A DNA stretch of 41,095 nt from a bacterium (lineage in GTDB: Bacteria; AUK180). The notes beneath the pieces are model-generated. The model did not search any database, was not told the DNA's origin, and saw only the letters and a program-made list of their open reading frames with translations. Where the stretch lies: positions 1-41,095 of the forward strand of contig JAGLGN010000033.1 of the NCBI GenBank assembly GCA_023144005.1. Reading direction: 5' to 3'. Position numbers and translations under genes: made by a program. Position 1 is the first letter of the stretch, and every line of letters begins with the position of its first letter. Below, piece by piece: positions 5,995 through 10,970 of this stretch.

Positions 5995-8900
5995 CTATTT
6001 CCTGAAATATACAGGTTTGATTTCATGATCTCCCCCGTCAGCCCGTTCGATCAGAATAAAATACAGCCCGGAGACCAATTCATTGCCATTCTCATCGATC
6101 GTAATATCACCCTCTAAGTATCCGTCCTCTTCAATGTCCCAGCCCATAACTTGTTCGCCGCCGGCATTGAGGAGTTTGACAAAATCACCGGCAAATACAT
6201 TTGTAACTCTGAAAGTATCCCTGACTGGATTGGGAATGATAGTTGTATCTTCATACCCTTTGGACCCCAGGAAATCAGTAGATAAAGCATTTGCGGAAAA
6301 GTCTGTAAACACATAATTTACGGGATTGAAAGTATACCCGCCATATGTTGCGGTAATAGTATAATTGCCCCCTGCATCCAAATTGGGGAACGAATAATTT
6401 CCACCGCCGCTTGTCAGAGTGGAATCGCTGAAATCCCCTGAGATAGACACGGTTACACCGTCCAATCCCTGCATATTCAGGTTTTCTGTAACAACTCCTG
6501 AAATGGTAAATGTGTTCAGAGTCCCTATGAAATCACTATCGGTAACATGACCCGTAAGATTGTTGTGATCTATCTCCGTAGGAGTAAAAACATAATGCTG
6601 AAGCGAAGCAATTATTTTGTAATTGCCGCCAGCCGCCAATTGTGTAAATACATAATACCCAGTGGCGGAAGTGCTCAAGGATGCTGTATCTGAGCCCGTC
6701 ATATTCACTGATACGCCCGCAAGCGGGTTTCCGATACCGTTCTCAATAATTCCTGAAATATTCCATTCATTGTATGAAGCGGTAAAATCCTGGGACGGTG
6801 TATCCGCAGCGATATCCACGATATCCCTTTGTACAGGGCTGAAAGAGTAATTTGTCATGGTCGGTGTAATAGCGAATGTTGTCCCGCCGAGAAGTCCGGT
6901 GAAAATAAAATTTCCCGAAGAATCTGTTGCGGTGGAGACAGTGGTATCCCCGGAAAGGTCAACGGTAACTCCCTGAAGCGGAGAAGCATTGTAAGTAATT
7001 GTGCCGGAAACATCATAAGTATCACGGGTCGCAACAAAGTTCTGTGCTTGGTCCGTTGTAGCATCAACGAATGTCTGATCTGTCGGAGCGAAGGTATAAT
7101 GTGTCATGGACGGAACAATAGTATAAGTGGCACCGGACAGAAGCCCGAGAAAGGAGTAATCGCCATTAAAATCTGTTAAAGTAAATCCCGTAGAATCACC
7201 GGAAAGGTCAATAGTAACATCCATAAGATCGCTACCCCGCCAAGTAATATTCCCTTCGAGCAAAACAGTATCGGGAGATCCGATAAATGTCACGGTATCG
7301 ACTTGATCTGCATCCAGGTCGGCCACAACCTTAGAGGTAGGAGCAAATGAGAAATTGGCCTTTGTAGGAGTTAACGTATATGTGGTACCGGCTTCCAGCG
7401 CTGGAAATGAGAAGTCCCCTAAAATATTGGTCGTGGTCGAAACCGGAGTTCCGCCGGTAACGGTTATCTGAACCCCTTCGAGCGGAGAAGTGTCCGGATT
7501 TTCCGCATTACCTGAAACAATATATGTTTTCAGCGTTCCGGTATAATCCTGTGAATTGTTGTCAGCGTCAAGTGCTGGGTAATTTCGCTCTGTCGGAGCA
7601 AATGAATAATAATCCGATGTCGGAGTGGCAGTATATGTCGCGCCTGCCGGGAGATCTGAAAATTCATAATAGCCCACGCCGTCAGTCACCGTGTTCAGGG
7701 TCGTATCACCTGTCAGATTTACCGTAACGCCGGAAATGGGAGATGATGCACCGTCTTGGATGTTGCCCGAAATATCGTATCTGTACAATTGTACATCAAA
7801 ATCACAATCTATTACATTGCCGGATAACGGTGAATAAGTATGATTCAAGATCGTTGAGAAAGAAAAAGGCCTTGAAACTGAAACGACATAAGTACATCCA
7901 GCATCCAAGTTGGAAAAGCTGAAATTCCCGGAACCATCGGTAGTCGTATTTTCAGTTGCATCCCCTGAAAGATGGACCGTCACCCCGTCCGCAGGACCTC
8001 CTGTATCCAGATCATTTACCGTTCCGCTGATATCATATTGAACCGGAGTTGCCGCAAAATTGCAATTTGTAACATCAGTAGAAATGGAGCTGTAATAATA
8101 GTCCACGGGACTATAAGTGTAATATGGATCGCTGGGAGTAACGGTGTATGAATAAGTGGTAGTTCCTGTCGGCAGATTCTTGAAAATGAAATACCCGGTA
8201 ACTGATGTTGCCAGAGAATCGGTAACCGAACCCGTAAGATCAATTGTGATATCGGCAACTGGGCTTCCGCCATCCGTAACAACACCGGAGATATGATTTG
8301 CGGTTTCGCCGTAAAAATTCACGCTCACATTGTCCATGACATTGGAGAATGTTCTCTCATTTGATGGCGGAAAGGCGTAATGATCGTATTCGACAGTGAT
8401 CGTATAAGTTGCTCCGGGAGGGAGATTGAAGAAACAGAAATATCCTCCTGCATCTGTAATCGTTTCCGCATTTGAGTCCCCTGAAAGCGTGACAGAAGCG
8501 CCCGTAATACCCATCGGTGCCTCATCATAGACAAATCCGCTGACCATGACATTGCTGATTTTGGCATGATACAACGTTTGGTTATTGTTATTGTAATATG
8601 AGATCTGAGGCATATTATTGTCATCAAGCGCCAGGAAGCAGTACTCTCCCGTCATAGCGGAACCGTCCACTATATCTTCTTCCCATACAGGGCCGACTTT
8701 CCTGGTAAATTTCAATCGCATCGAATTATCGTCATAAAAAGCGATATTCGGGACCCCGTCGGAACCTATTTTGATCGAGGAATACATTCCCGAGGGGCTG
8801 GTGGAAGTAGCATTTTCATAACTCCAGGCGCCGGCAGTATTATAACCGTACCTTAAAAAGCTCGTGGTCTCGTCCTTATAGGAAATATGCGGTTTATCAT

Positions 8901-9606
8901 TTTCATCAAGATCAAGCGAGGGGTTCGATGCCATCGCTCCGCCGTCGAGTACCTCGGATTCCCACCCGGAACCGATATTTTTAGTATATTTGATACATTG
9001 CAATGTATCGTTTCGATAGGCGATATGCGGATAATCGAGGGAATCAAGATCCAGCGATGGGTCATACCCCACCATCCCGGAAGAATCAACAACATCATAT
9101 TGCCAGTCAGAACCATCGTAATAACAGTAGAGAAGGTCCGTATTCTCCATATCAAGGTAGGCAATATGAGGATTGCCGACGGAATCAAGATCAAGCGAAG
9201 TGTAGTATCCCACACCCATCGCCCCCGCGATAGAATGTACGACCTCTGTGCTCCAAGGGCCGCCACTGTTCGTAGCATATTTAAGATCCATTTCCCAGAA
9301 ATCTTGATATGAGATATGGACTTTATCAAGGGCATCGATCTTTATGGAAGTGTGCATTCCTGTTCCCGATGAATCAAGTACTGTATAATTCCAATTTGAT
9401 CCATTCCAAAAAGCATATTTCAGCCAACCGTTTGTACTGTCATAGTATGAAATATGCGGATATCCGTTTGAATCAAGGTCTATGGAGGAGTACTGGCCTA
9501 CCATTCCGGAAGAATCGACAATATTGTAATTCCAAGTTGCCGCAGATATGGAAACGCAGAGCATAAGAAAAACAAACGCAAGAGTTAAAATCCGGGTTCT
9601 CTTCAT
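5995..9606 (-). CDS. Giant secreted repeat protein with C-terminal sorting domain
   Basis: A 1203-residue protein with a clear signal peptide (about 1-22, RILTLAFVFLMLCVSISA). Residues about 23-350 contain seven units of about 46 residues built on SSIDLDSNGYPHISYYD-like cores, resembling beta-propeller or BNR-type blades. Residues about 352-1110 contain nine carboxypeptidase-regulatory-like (CarboxypepD_reg/SdrD-B type) domains of about 84 residues. Each has the plan ISGxVxD...GVTVxLSGD...TDxxGxFxFxxLxAGxTYTxTP. The last 85 residues (IIPNPVRDTFRV...GNELVSGLYFILIE...PVYFRK) match the type IX-like C-terminal sorting domain. Likely exported to the surface or medium as an adhesin or matrix protein (inference). 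Own promoter; followed by the PorV/CsgG fusion, a plausible export partner. Confidence 0.85.
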   Translation of the reverse strand: MKRTRILTLAFVFLMLCVSISAATWNYNIVDSSGMVGQYSSIDLDSNGYPHISYYDSTNGWLKYAFWNGSNWNYTVLDSSGTGMHTSIKIDALDKVHISYQDFWEMDLKYATNSGGPWSTEVVHSIAGAMGVGYYTSLDLDSVGNPHIAYLDMENTDLLYCYYDGSDWQYDVVDSSGMVGYDPSLDLDSLDYPHIAYRNDTLQCIKYTKNIGSGWESEVLDGGAMASNPSLDLDENDKPHISYKDETTSFLRYGYNTAGAWSYENATSTSPSGMYSSIKIGSDGVPNIAFYDDNSMRLKFTRKVGPVWEEDIVDGSAMTGEYCFLALDDNNMPQISYYNNNNQTLYHAKISNVMVSGFVYDEAPMGITGASVTLSGDSNAETITDAGGYFCFFNLPPGATYTITVEYDHYAFPPSNERTFSNVMDNVSVNFYGETANHISGVVTDGGSPVADITIDLTGSVTDSLATSVTGYFIFKNLPTGTTTYSYTVTPSDPYYTYSPVDYYYSSISTDVTNCNFAATPVQYDISGTVNDLDTGGPADGVTVHLSGDATENTTTDGSGNFSFSNLDAGCTYVVSVSRPFSFSTILNHTYSPLSGNVIDCDFDVQLYRYDISGNIQDGASSPISGVTVNLTGDTTLNTVTDGVGYYEFSDLPAGATYTATPTSDYYSFAPTERNYPALDADNNSQDYTGTLKTYIVSGNAENPDTSPLEGVQITVTGGTPVSTTTNILGDFSFPALEAGTTYTLTPTKANFSFAPTSKVVADLDADQVDTVTFIGSPDTVLLEGNITWRGSDLMDVTIDLSGDSTGFTLTDFNGDYSFLGLLSGATYTIVPSMTHYTFAPTDQTFVDATTDQAQNFVATRDTYDVSGTITYNASPLQGVTVDLSGDTTVSTATDSSGNFIFTGLLGGTTFAITPTMTNYSFSPVQRDIVDIAADTPSQDFTASYNEWNISGIIENGIGNPLAGVSVNMTGSDTASLSTSATGYYVFTQLAAGGNYKIIASLQHYVFTPTEIDHNNLTGHVTDSDFIGTLNTFTISGVVTENLNMQGLDGVTVSISGDFSDSTLTSGGGNYSFPNLDAGGNYTITATYGGYTFNPVNYVFTDFSANALSTDFLGSKGYEDTTIIPNPVRDTFRVTNVFAGDFVKLLNAGGEQVMGWDIEEDGYLEGDITIDENGNELVSGLYFILIERADGGDHEIKPVYFRK

Positions 9607-10374: not shown

Positions 10375-10436
10375 AAGAATAGCAGAACTAACCGCCCTTT
10401 CATTTGAATTGGCAAATGGTGGGCGATAGTGGACTC
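10375..10436 (-). repeat. Partial tRNA-Val copy and spacer, left direct repeat
   Basis: This segment matches 10786-10850 with small indels. Read on the minus strand it contains the last 20 bases of tRNA-Val including CCA, a short spacer, then the first 13 bases of the tRNA (GGGCGGTTAGTTC) followed by TGCTATTCTT. It lies about 411 bp from the right copy. Together they bracket the hairpin-rich segment, like the att duplications left by integration at a tRNA 3' end or the remains of tandem tRNA copies. Confidence 0.8.
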
Positions 10437-10785
10437 ATCAGTCTGCCATGCAGACTGCGTGTTAAGTGTAAAGTGGGATAATACAATAAAGAAGTGGATG
10501 ATAACAAAATATCCGTAATTTTGTTTATCCCTTTAGCTTCTATCGTAACAATAATTAGGCACTGTATAATATCAGCCTGCGGGACGTGAGGTTGATTATG
10601 TAAACCTGTAACAACATATGAAATTAGATTATTAGGTTTACAAAATGCGAGCTCCGTCCCCGGATAAGCAATGCGTGCTGAGTCAATCTGAACAGACTCA
10701 GCTTGGAGTTTTGCCAAAAACTCTGCAACCAACGCAAAGTTTTCAAAAGAAATCTCATTGAAAACTTCAAGCTATTCTTCTCGAC
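10437..10785. other. Hairpin-rich insert between tRNA-Val fragments
   Basis: No convincing gene. The segment holds seven short perfect inverted repeats in a row, the last one running into the right direct repeat. They are CAGTCTGC/GCAGACTG (10439-10457), AACAAAAT/ATTTTGTT (10503-10525), GTAAACCT/AGGTTTAC (10600-10641), GCTGAGTC/GACTCAGC (10677-10702), GAGTTTT/AAAACTC (about 10706-10724), AAGTTTTCA/TGAAAACTT (10737-10767) and GCTATTCTT/AAGAATAGC (10771-10794). A minus-strand open frame of 110 codons from TTG at 10732 crosses the hairpins but has no SD or recognisable family. A structured RNA or a small integrated element is possible. Confidence 0.6.
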
Positions 10786-10850
10786 AAGAATAGCAGAACT
10801 AACCGCCTTTACCTCATTTGATTAGGGAAATGGTGGGCGATAGTGGACTC
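10786..10850 (-). repeat. Partial tRNA-Val copy and spacer, right direct repeat
   Basis: Right-hand member of the 62-65 bp direct repeat pair. Its right end (10831-10850) is the true 3' end of the intact tRNA-Val gene. Its left end carries a second copy of the tRNA's first 12 bases (10796-10807, one G shorter), followed by TGCTATTCTT, which forms one arm of a hairpin with the neighbouring insert. Confidence 0.8.
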
Positions 10851-10907
10851 GAACCACCGACCTCATGCGTGTGAAGCATGCGTTCTAACCAACTGAACTA
10901 ACCGCCC
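10831..10907 (-). tRNA. tRNA-Val (CAC)
   Basis: Minus-strand cloverleaf of 77 bases with an encoded CCA end. Acceptor stem GGGCGGT pairs with ATCGCCC (one G-T). The D arm is GTTC/GAAC. The anticodon stem is CATGC/GCATG with loop TTCACAC, so the anticodon is CAC, reading the valine codon GTG. The T arm is GGTGG-TTCGAGT-CCACT. Discriminator base is A. Transcribed from a TTGATT-17-TATAAT promoter just upstream. Confidence 0.97.
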
Positions 10908-10941: not shown

Positions 10942-10970
10942 ATTATACTCGTTCTCCCCAGAATAATCAA
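10942..10970 (-). promoter_or_regulatory. Promoter of tRNA-Val
   Basis: Minus strand -35 TTGATT (10965-10970), 17-base spacer, -10 TATAAT (10942-10947), about 34 bases before the mature tRNA 5' end. This lies between the tRNA and the stop of the upstream barrel gene. Confidence 0.65.

Follow-up and report, generated by a model that had tools for sequence, protein, structure and literature searches.

A hairpin-filled, tRNA-ended repeat behind a bacterial tRNA-Val gene and its likeness in layout to a widespread family of structured RNA units

The stretch behind the tRNA-Val(CAC) gene of the window (the whole 41,095-nt stretch analysed here, contig C27 of genome G000, which amounts to 2.67 Mb in 38 contigs) raises the question of what lies between the two ends of a second, split tRNA-Val copy. 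A sequence-only reading of the window had offered three answers: a tiny integrated element using the tRNA as its attachment site, a decayed tandem tRNA, or a structured RNA with tRNA-like ends. The evidence for this locus favors a mixture of the latter two over the integrated element. To our knowledge, the rtT repeats of Escherichia coli have long been the lone case of tRNA-tail repeats. All parts of the Val locus are read on the minus strand, and their coordinates are given in Table 1.

Table 1. Features of the tRNA-Val locus in window coordinates, with the basis of each assignment.
Feature	Position	Strand	Basis
Promoter-like TTGATT-17-TATAAT, 5′ of tRNA-Val	10942-10970	-	consensus scan only
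Intact tRNA-Val(CAC), encoded CCA	10831-10907	-	ARAGORN; Rfam RF00005, 67.7 bits
23-nt spacer, tRNA-Val to unit	10808-10830	-	sequence
Unit 1, tRNA-ended hairpin repeat	10417-10807	-	homologous to two tandem units in L010 (G001)
Exact copy of tRNA-Val nt 2-13, 5′ side of closing stem	10796-10807	-	exact match
Hairpin 1, 9 bp	10771-10794	-	perfect-hairpin count
Hairpin 2, 10 bp	10737-10767	-	perfect-hairpin count
GTTGGTT, the tRNA D-loop core heptamer, between hairpins 2 and 3	10727-10733	-	sequence
Hairpin 3, 7 bp	10706-10723	-	perfect-hairpin count
Hairpin 4, 8 bp	10677-10702	-	perfect-hairpin count
Stretch without counterpart in G001 units, in place of anticodon arm and most of T arm	10437-10665	-	alignment end
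Dispersed intergenic repeat piece	10459-10514	-	11 other places in the window's genome
Exact copy of tRNA-Val last 20 nt, T-loop to CCA	10417-10436	-	exact match
Third copy of tRNA-Val 5′ end (nt 1-13), start of decayed second unit	10385-10397	-	exact match

As the sequence-only reading had it, the intact tRNA-Val is followed by a split copy, the parts of which are 359 bp apart because tRNA nt 2-13 recur exactly at 10807-10796 and the 3′-terminal 20 nt reappear at 10436-10417. The direct repeat of 62 to 65 bp that it placed around the insert, containing the tRNA 3′ end, is also present, with 10375-10436 (62 nt) matching 10786-10850 (65 nt); within it, 10375-10399 repeats 10786-10810 at 96%. 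Its series of seven perfect hairpins came out as six perfect hairpins, each 7 bp or longer, and a seventh stem that is imperfect and longer-range, pairing 10595-10607 with 10634-10646 at 92% complementarity. Perfect hairpins of this kind (at least 7 bp, loop of at most 12) averaged 0.22, with a maximum of 3, in 1000 dinucleotide-preserving shuffles of the 398-nt stretch. The heptamer between hairpins 2 and 3 may be a remnant of the D-loop, and the stretch of roughly 230 nt that follows hairpin 4 contains perfect hairpins at 10503-10525 and 10439-10457. At its 3′ end the unit carries the host tRNA from the T-loop on, which can form a closing stem with the 5′ flank: in the predicted fold of the minus strand of 10420-10808 (z = -6.4) the tRNA-derived ends pair with each other, and in a G001 unit (predicted fold, z = -5.7) the tRNA-derived ends are paired as well; the predicted duplex between the ends of the Val unit is -14.5 kcal/mol.

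The unit does not contain a complete tRNA fold, as ARAGORN and Rfam return only the upstream tRNA in both the window and L010. No known protein family is encoded in it, the sole open reading frame of at least 80 aa within it (10400-10732, minus strand) has no Pfam match, and no recombinase was found in the unit or among the seven neighboring open reading frames scanned. Terminator-like consensus matches between 10250 and 11100 are confined to the two repeated tRNA-Val starts. Two catalytic RNAs were considered and set aside: a hammerhead ribozyme, prompted by CTGATGA near 10440, scored 14.6 bits against an Rfam gathering score of 48.5, and for a self-splicing intron in the tRNA copy the Rfam scans gave no group I or II intron match. 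The dispersed repeat at 10459-10514 has the core TTGTATTATCCCACTTTACACTT and occurs in G001 too; similar strings, CCCACTTTACACATCACAC, come after the serine units in L063 and L067 described below. Elsewhere in the window, 5995-9606 encodes a protein of 1203 aa in which the carboxypeptidase-regulatory-like domain PF13620 matches at eight stretches.

The make-up of the unit becomes clearer in G001, which alone of the searched relatives is of the same genus and which shares the upstream gene (98% protein identity) and the tRNA-Val with the window. Near the end of its contig (JAGLWT010000087.1) lie two tandem Val units with a 206-bp period, each consisting of 13 nt of the tRNA 5′ end (one mismatch), four hairpins flanking a D-loop-like GTTGGTT, and a 3′ part identical to the tRNA 3′ half at 47 of 47 nt, with the anticodon and T arms retained. 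From these simpler units, the Val unit can therefore be read as a copy of tRNA-Val whose D-arm region is occupied by an array of hairpins; in the window unit, about 230 nt substitute for the anticodon arm and the greater part of the T arm. The four perfect hairpins are conserved between the two species, and across the three Val units none of the nine variable inner columns falls in a paired column (139 inner columns, 68 of them paired; P = 0.0018). The unit as a whole differs strongly between these two species of one genus, and the spacer between the upstream gene and the tRNA is far more diverged than the unit. The comparison supports a mixed reading of the Val locus, in which a tandem tRNA-Val copy would have had its D-arm region filled with hairpins of invariant stems and varying loops.

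The sequence-only reading had proposed looking for an empty site, for homologs by covariance search and for compensatory changes. Empty sites exist: in G003 and G004, which belong to two related genera, tRNA-Val adjoins the same gene and no unit follows, and the G002 contig stops inside the upstream gene and was not counted. Searched with R3, a covariance model built on the Val unit, 372 genomes gave homologs in G000 and G001 alone. No stem position is altered across the three Val copies, and compensatory changes are strongly evident in a second family of units, of the same layout, behind other tRNAs of the same genome. The encoded CCA of tRNA-Val(CAC) is present in G000 and G001, where units follow, and absent in G003 and G004, where none does (loci 10831-10907, L011 1501-1574 and L039).

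The arrangement closely resembles that of the E. coli tyrT/tyrV rtT (RttR) repeats, RF00391, tandem units with a period of about 178 nt directly behind the tRNA. The E. coli units terminate in the final 19 nt of tRNA-Tyr, and the window unit, also directly behind its tRNA, in the final 20 nt of tRNA-Val. The two differ at the other end, where rtT is complementary to the tRNA-Tyr end (-19.8 kcal/mol) and the Val unit repeats the 5′ end of its tRNA, and the hairpin content of rtT differs from that of the units found here. In E. coli K-12 (L139, 711-1329) each rtT start is 10 nt complementary to the T-stem and acceptor 3′ strand of tRNA-Tyr, which allows every repeat to close by pairing with the tRNA tail that it carries. 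RF00391 has no match in the window or in L063, L067, L104, L105, L010, L132 and L134 (134 to 138 bits on the E. coli control), and the models of the second family, R1 and R2, have none at the E. coli tyrV-rttR locus; with no match by sequence or by model either way, we class the window unit as rtT-like in its layout, outside both the RtT RNAs and R2. PMC4986893 describes RtT as an RNA liberated from the tRNA operon transcript and linked to amino-acid limitation. The Rfam motifs TD-1 (RF03155) and TD-2 (RF03162) have three hairpins in the same order and with a similar linker as the Val unit; TD-1 scores 28 bits on L010 1637-1743 (gathering score 64.5) and TD-2 17.9 bits in the window (gathering score 48.7), which makes them leads rather than memberships.

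The second family came from the tRNA neighborhoods of the two genomes, of which 42 loci were read, covering all tRNA places of G000 and part of those of G001. Behind tRNA-Ser genes in both genomes lie units that end in the 3′ end of their own tRNA and have an interior in common, and in G004 such a unit, with compensatory changes, follows tRNA-Gln. Model R1, built from six cores that were aligned without structure, shows two-sided changes in 11 of 39 pairs and matches 4 of the 7 genomes searched from the window's phylum, as well as 7 of a sample of 386. The wider model R2 has matches in 6 of 16 genomes searched from a second phylum; in a third it matches 138 of 340 genomes, spread over 24 of the 100 genera covered, with at least 9 copies scored in the most copy-rich genome of the third phylum. 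In an alignment of 23 units (matches at E ≤ 1e-8 in 20 chosen loci; 16 of the 23 matches had also built R2 and match it by construction), 23 of 39 pairs carry two-sided changes and 96.0% of cells are paired, as against 78.8% in shuffled controls and at most 45.0% with slid partners; this alignment was fitted to the structure and so leans toward it. Two of its pairs are G-U in 21 and 20 of the 23 sequences, respectively, which points to an RNA of the tRNA-sense strand. At gathering score, no Rfam family matches a conserved-fold unit in the six loci scanned, and laxer scans gave no match confined to such a unit. The sRNA model sX4 (RF02223, gathering score 70) partly matches tRNA-Ser together with the stretch downstream of it, at L063 1310-1483 (28.3 bits) and L132 1639-1760 (35.5 bits). 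We found no description of such a family in the literature searched, a search that took in few subscription papers. R1 has no match to the Val unit in L010 and L001 and R2 none in the window and L010, at E values up to 10; on these searches and on layout, the Val unit is to be regarded as sharing the arrangement of the conserved-fold units and not their family.

Members of this family mostly sit directly behind a tRNA or tmRNA. Among 34 places, 25 follow a tRNA or tmRNA of the same strand. Nine do not: for seven of these the contig extends at most 150 nt upstream, and two (L147 and L150, 28.6 bits, with no upstream tRNA) are probably false, and were counted as misses and left out of the alignments. 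For the third phylum, the 30 places with a locus that scored best, and are thus not a random sample, were checked: 28 sit within 100 nt behind a tRNA, the two misses being L173 and L176. Hosts include Ser, Gln, Val, Met, Tyr, Arg, Leu, Ala, Asp and Cys tRNAs, as well as one tmRNA that Rfam confirms. The tmRNA case (L136 1133-1644, in G078) has its unit 19 nt behind the tmRNA and the tmRNA 3′ end at the end of the unit. Most copies carry the host 3′ end from the T-loop on as their 3′ flank, and in some this copy is lost or worn (for example L165, L167, L169, L178 and L189).

The 5′ flank tends to match the host as well. Across 44 chosen units, each with an ARAGORN tRNA close upstream (leaving aside the tmRNA unit, truncated units, second tandem copies, L173 and L176), it forms a predicted duplex averaging -10.5 kcal/mol with the 3′ end of its own host, compared with -6.2 kcal/mol for other isotypes. 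The own host was the better partner in 1043 of 1256 comparisons, a result reached in 0 of 20,000 permutations, and likewise in 0 of 20,000 when only the 19 non-serine hosts are taken. The difference was weaker in an earlier test on fewer units, in which the 5′ flank was paired with the 3′ flank of the unit itself (-8.8 versus -6.9 kcal/mol; 42 of 20,000), and some members of the family, L132, L141, L144 and L182, have no 5′ match.

Interiors are common to different tRNA loci. The core behind tRNA-Ser(CGA) in G078 is 96% identical to that of L140 in G389, the host of which would be tRNA-Val(UAC), judging from its 3′ end and from L153, and 93% identical to the Ser(CGA) core of G389. The first Ser(GGA) unit of G000 is 94% identical to the Ser(UGA) units and 84% to its own tandem neighbor, and the hosts occupied, as detected in these incomplete genomes, differ between relatives. 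Such shared interiors would fit either transposition or gene conversion with refitted ends, two processes that the sequences do not separate. Phages and plasmids gave no match and viral contigs none by pattern, searches that diverged copies would escape. The T-loop breakpoint prompted the bare idea of reverse transcription primed at the tRNA end, against which it counts that the closing stem stops short of CCA in L063 and in E. coli. Directly behind tRNA-Asp in G001 (L083 2768-3176) is a gene for an 82-aa GIY-YIG nuclease, followed by a 27-nt copy of the tRNA-Asp 3′ end; G000 seemingly has just the decayed start of such a gene (L060, from 1305), and G005, of another family, also has one behind tRNA-Asp (L087 1382-1770). 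The nuclease was considered as a driver and not adopted, since 15 of 17 GIY-YIG places have no tRNA in the neighborhood examined and many are long open reading frames.

How the Val unit arose can be judged against three alternatives. That palindromes accumulated by functionless drift in spare tRNA-Val copies, unrelated to the other units, is a possible account, to which we give a minority share of our confidence. It would leave just what a tandem duplication leaves, a copy of nt 2-13 together with the tRNA 3′ half that G001 retains at 47 of 47 nt; it agrees with the more eroded state of the window copy, which carries a piece of dispersed repeat, and with an interior restricted to two genomes of one genus. 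Its main argument is that the 5′ end is copied from the tRNA 5′ end and shows no special antisense. Drift without function is harder to reconcile with four perfect hairpins conserved between species, with all nine changes lying outside stems, with a gene-tRNA spacer much more diverged than the unit and with the recurrence of the same layout behind many tRNAs.

tRNA and tmRNA genes are usual targets of integrases, and integrative elements use their 3′ ends as attachment sites. The Val unit resembles such elements in its direct repeat with the tRNA 3′ end and in the empty sites of relatives (G003 and G004), and the conserved-fold family is likewise found at a tmRNA as well as at tRNAs. A tiny DNA element of this sort, with its recombinase encoded elsewhere, the direct repeats as attachment sites and the hairpins serving as recombinase binding sites, is nevertheless unlikely. 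The Val unit differs from integrative elements in having neither recombinase nor genes, in its size of some 200 to 400 bp and in its conserved folded interior; the seven neighboring open reading frames scanned include no recombinase gene, phages, plasmids and, by pattern, viral contigs gave no match in searches that diverged copies would escape, the conserved G-U pairs of the second family indicate RNA, and the G001 unit comprises most of a whole tRNA, exceeding an attachment core. Less probable still is a dedicated sRNA that is cut out of the tRNA-Val transcript and acts in the cell much as has been proposed for rtT in E. coli. The identical layout of tyrV-rttR and the reported liberation of RtT from its operon transcript, with its link to amino-acid limitation, speak for it (PMC4986893); RF00391 finds nothing in the window or the units tested, the Val unit changes strongly within one genus, and the hosts of the conserved-fold family differ between relatives, all of which argue against a fixed regulator.

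The best overall reading is that these are structured RNA repeats on tRNA tails, probably mobile between tRNA genes. For the Val feature itself, we regard it as an evenly balanced proposition that it is a short tandem array of tRNA-ended hairpin repeats, one unit and the start of a decayed second, that arose by the following process. The units would be transcribed together with the tRNA and then released as structured RNAs with tRNA ends; the conserved-fold family would pass from one tRNA gene to another, by movement or by conversion, and have its ends adapted to each host; and the Val unit would have come about in the same way, or convergently, from a duplicated tRNA-Val, with an interior of its own. 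Our confidence goes no higher because the Val 5′ end repeats that of the tRNA, and in any duplicate of a tRNA the two ends would pair. It also counts against this explanation that R1 and R2 miss the Val unit, that R3 is confined to G000 and G001, that the window copy has neither the anticodon arm nor most of the T arm, that the G001 array lies at a contig end, and that either the 5′ match or the 3′ copy is missing from several conserved-fold members. More tentatively, we speculate that gene-less small RNA elements may colonize the stretch from T-loop to tail of tRNA and tmRNA genes in several phyla, duplicating the host 3′ end at each insertion, carrying a 5′ strand fitted to it in antisense and moving their interiors by an RNA-based process, with the Val unit as a divergent member and rtT in the same class. 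Under this proposal, the duplicated host 3′ end and the fitted antisense 5′ strand would leave the host tRNA intact and give the RNA of the element a tRNA end.

The Val locus is real, non-random and of a recognizable kind, and is of middling interest alone. The conserved-fold family is the more important result, being widespread, supported by strong covariation and tied to the tails of tRNAs and tmRNA. With it, the rtT-like layout is now seen in further phyla, as is an RNA family that Rfam does not match and that has many copies per genome and ends fitted to ten tRNA types and one tmRNA. We propose that a second structured RNA is a common product of tRNA operons or else that a class of tiny mobile RNA elements resides at tRNA genes.
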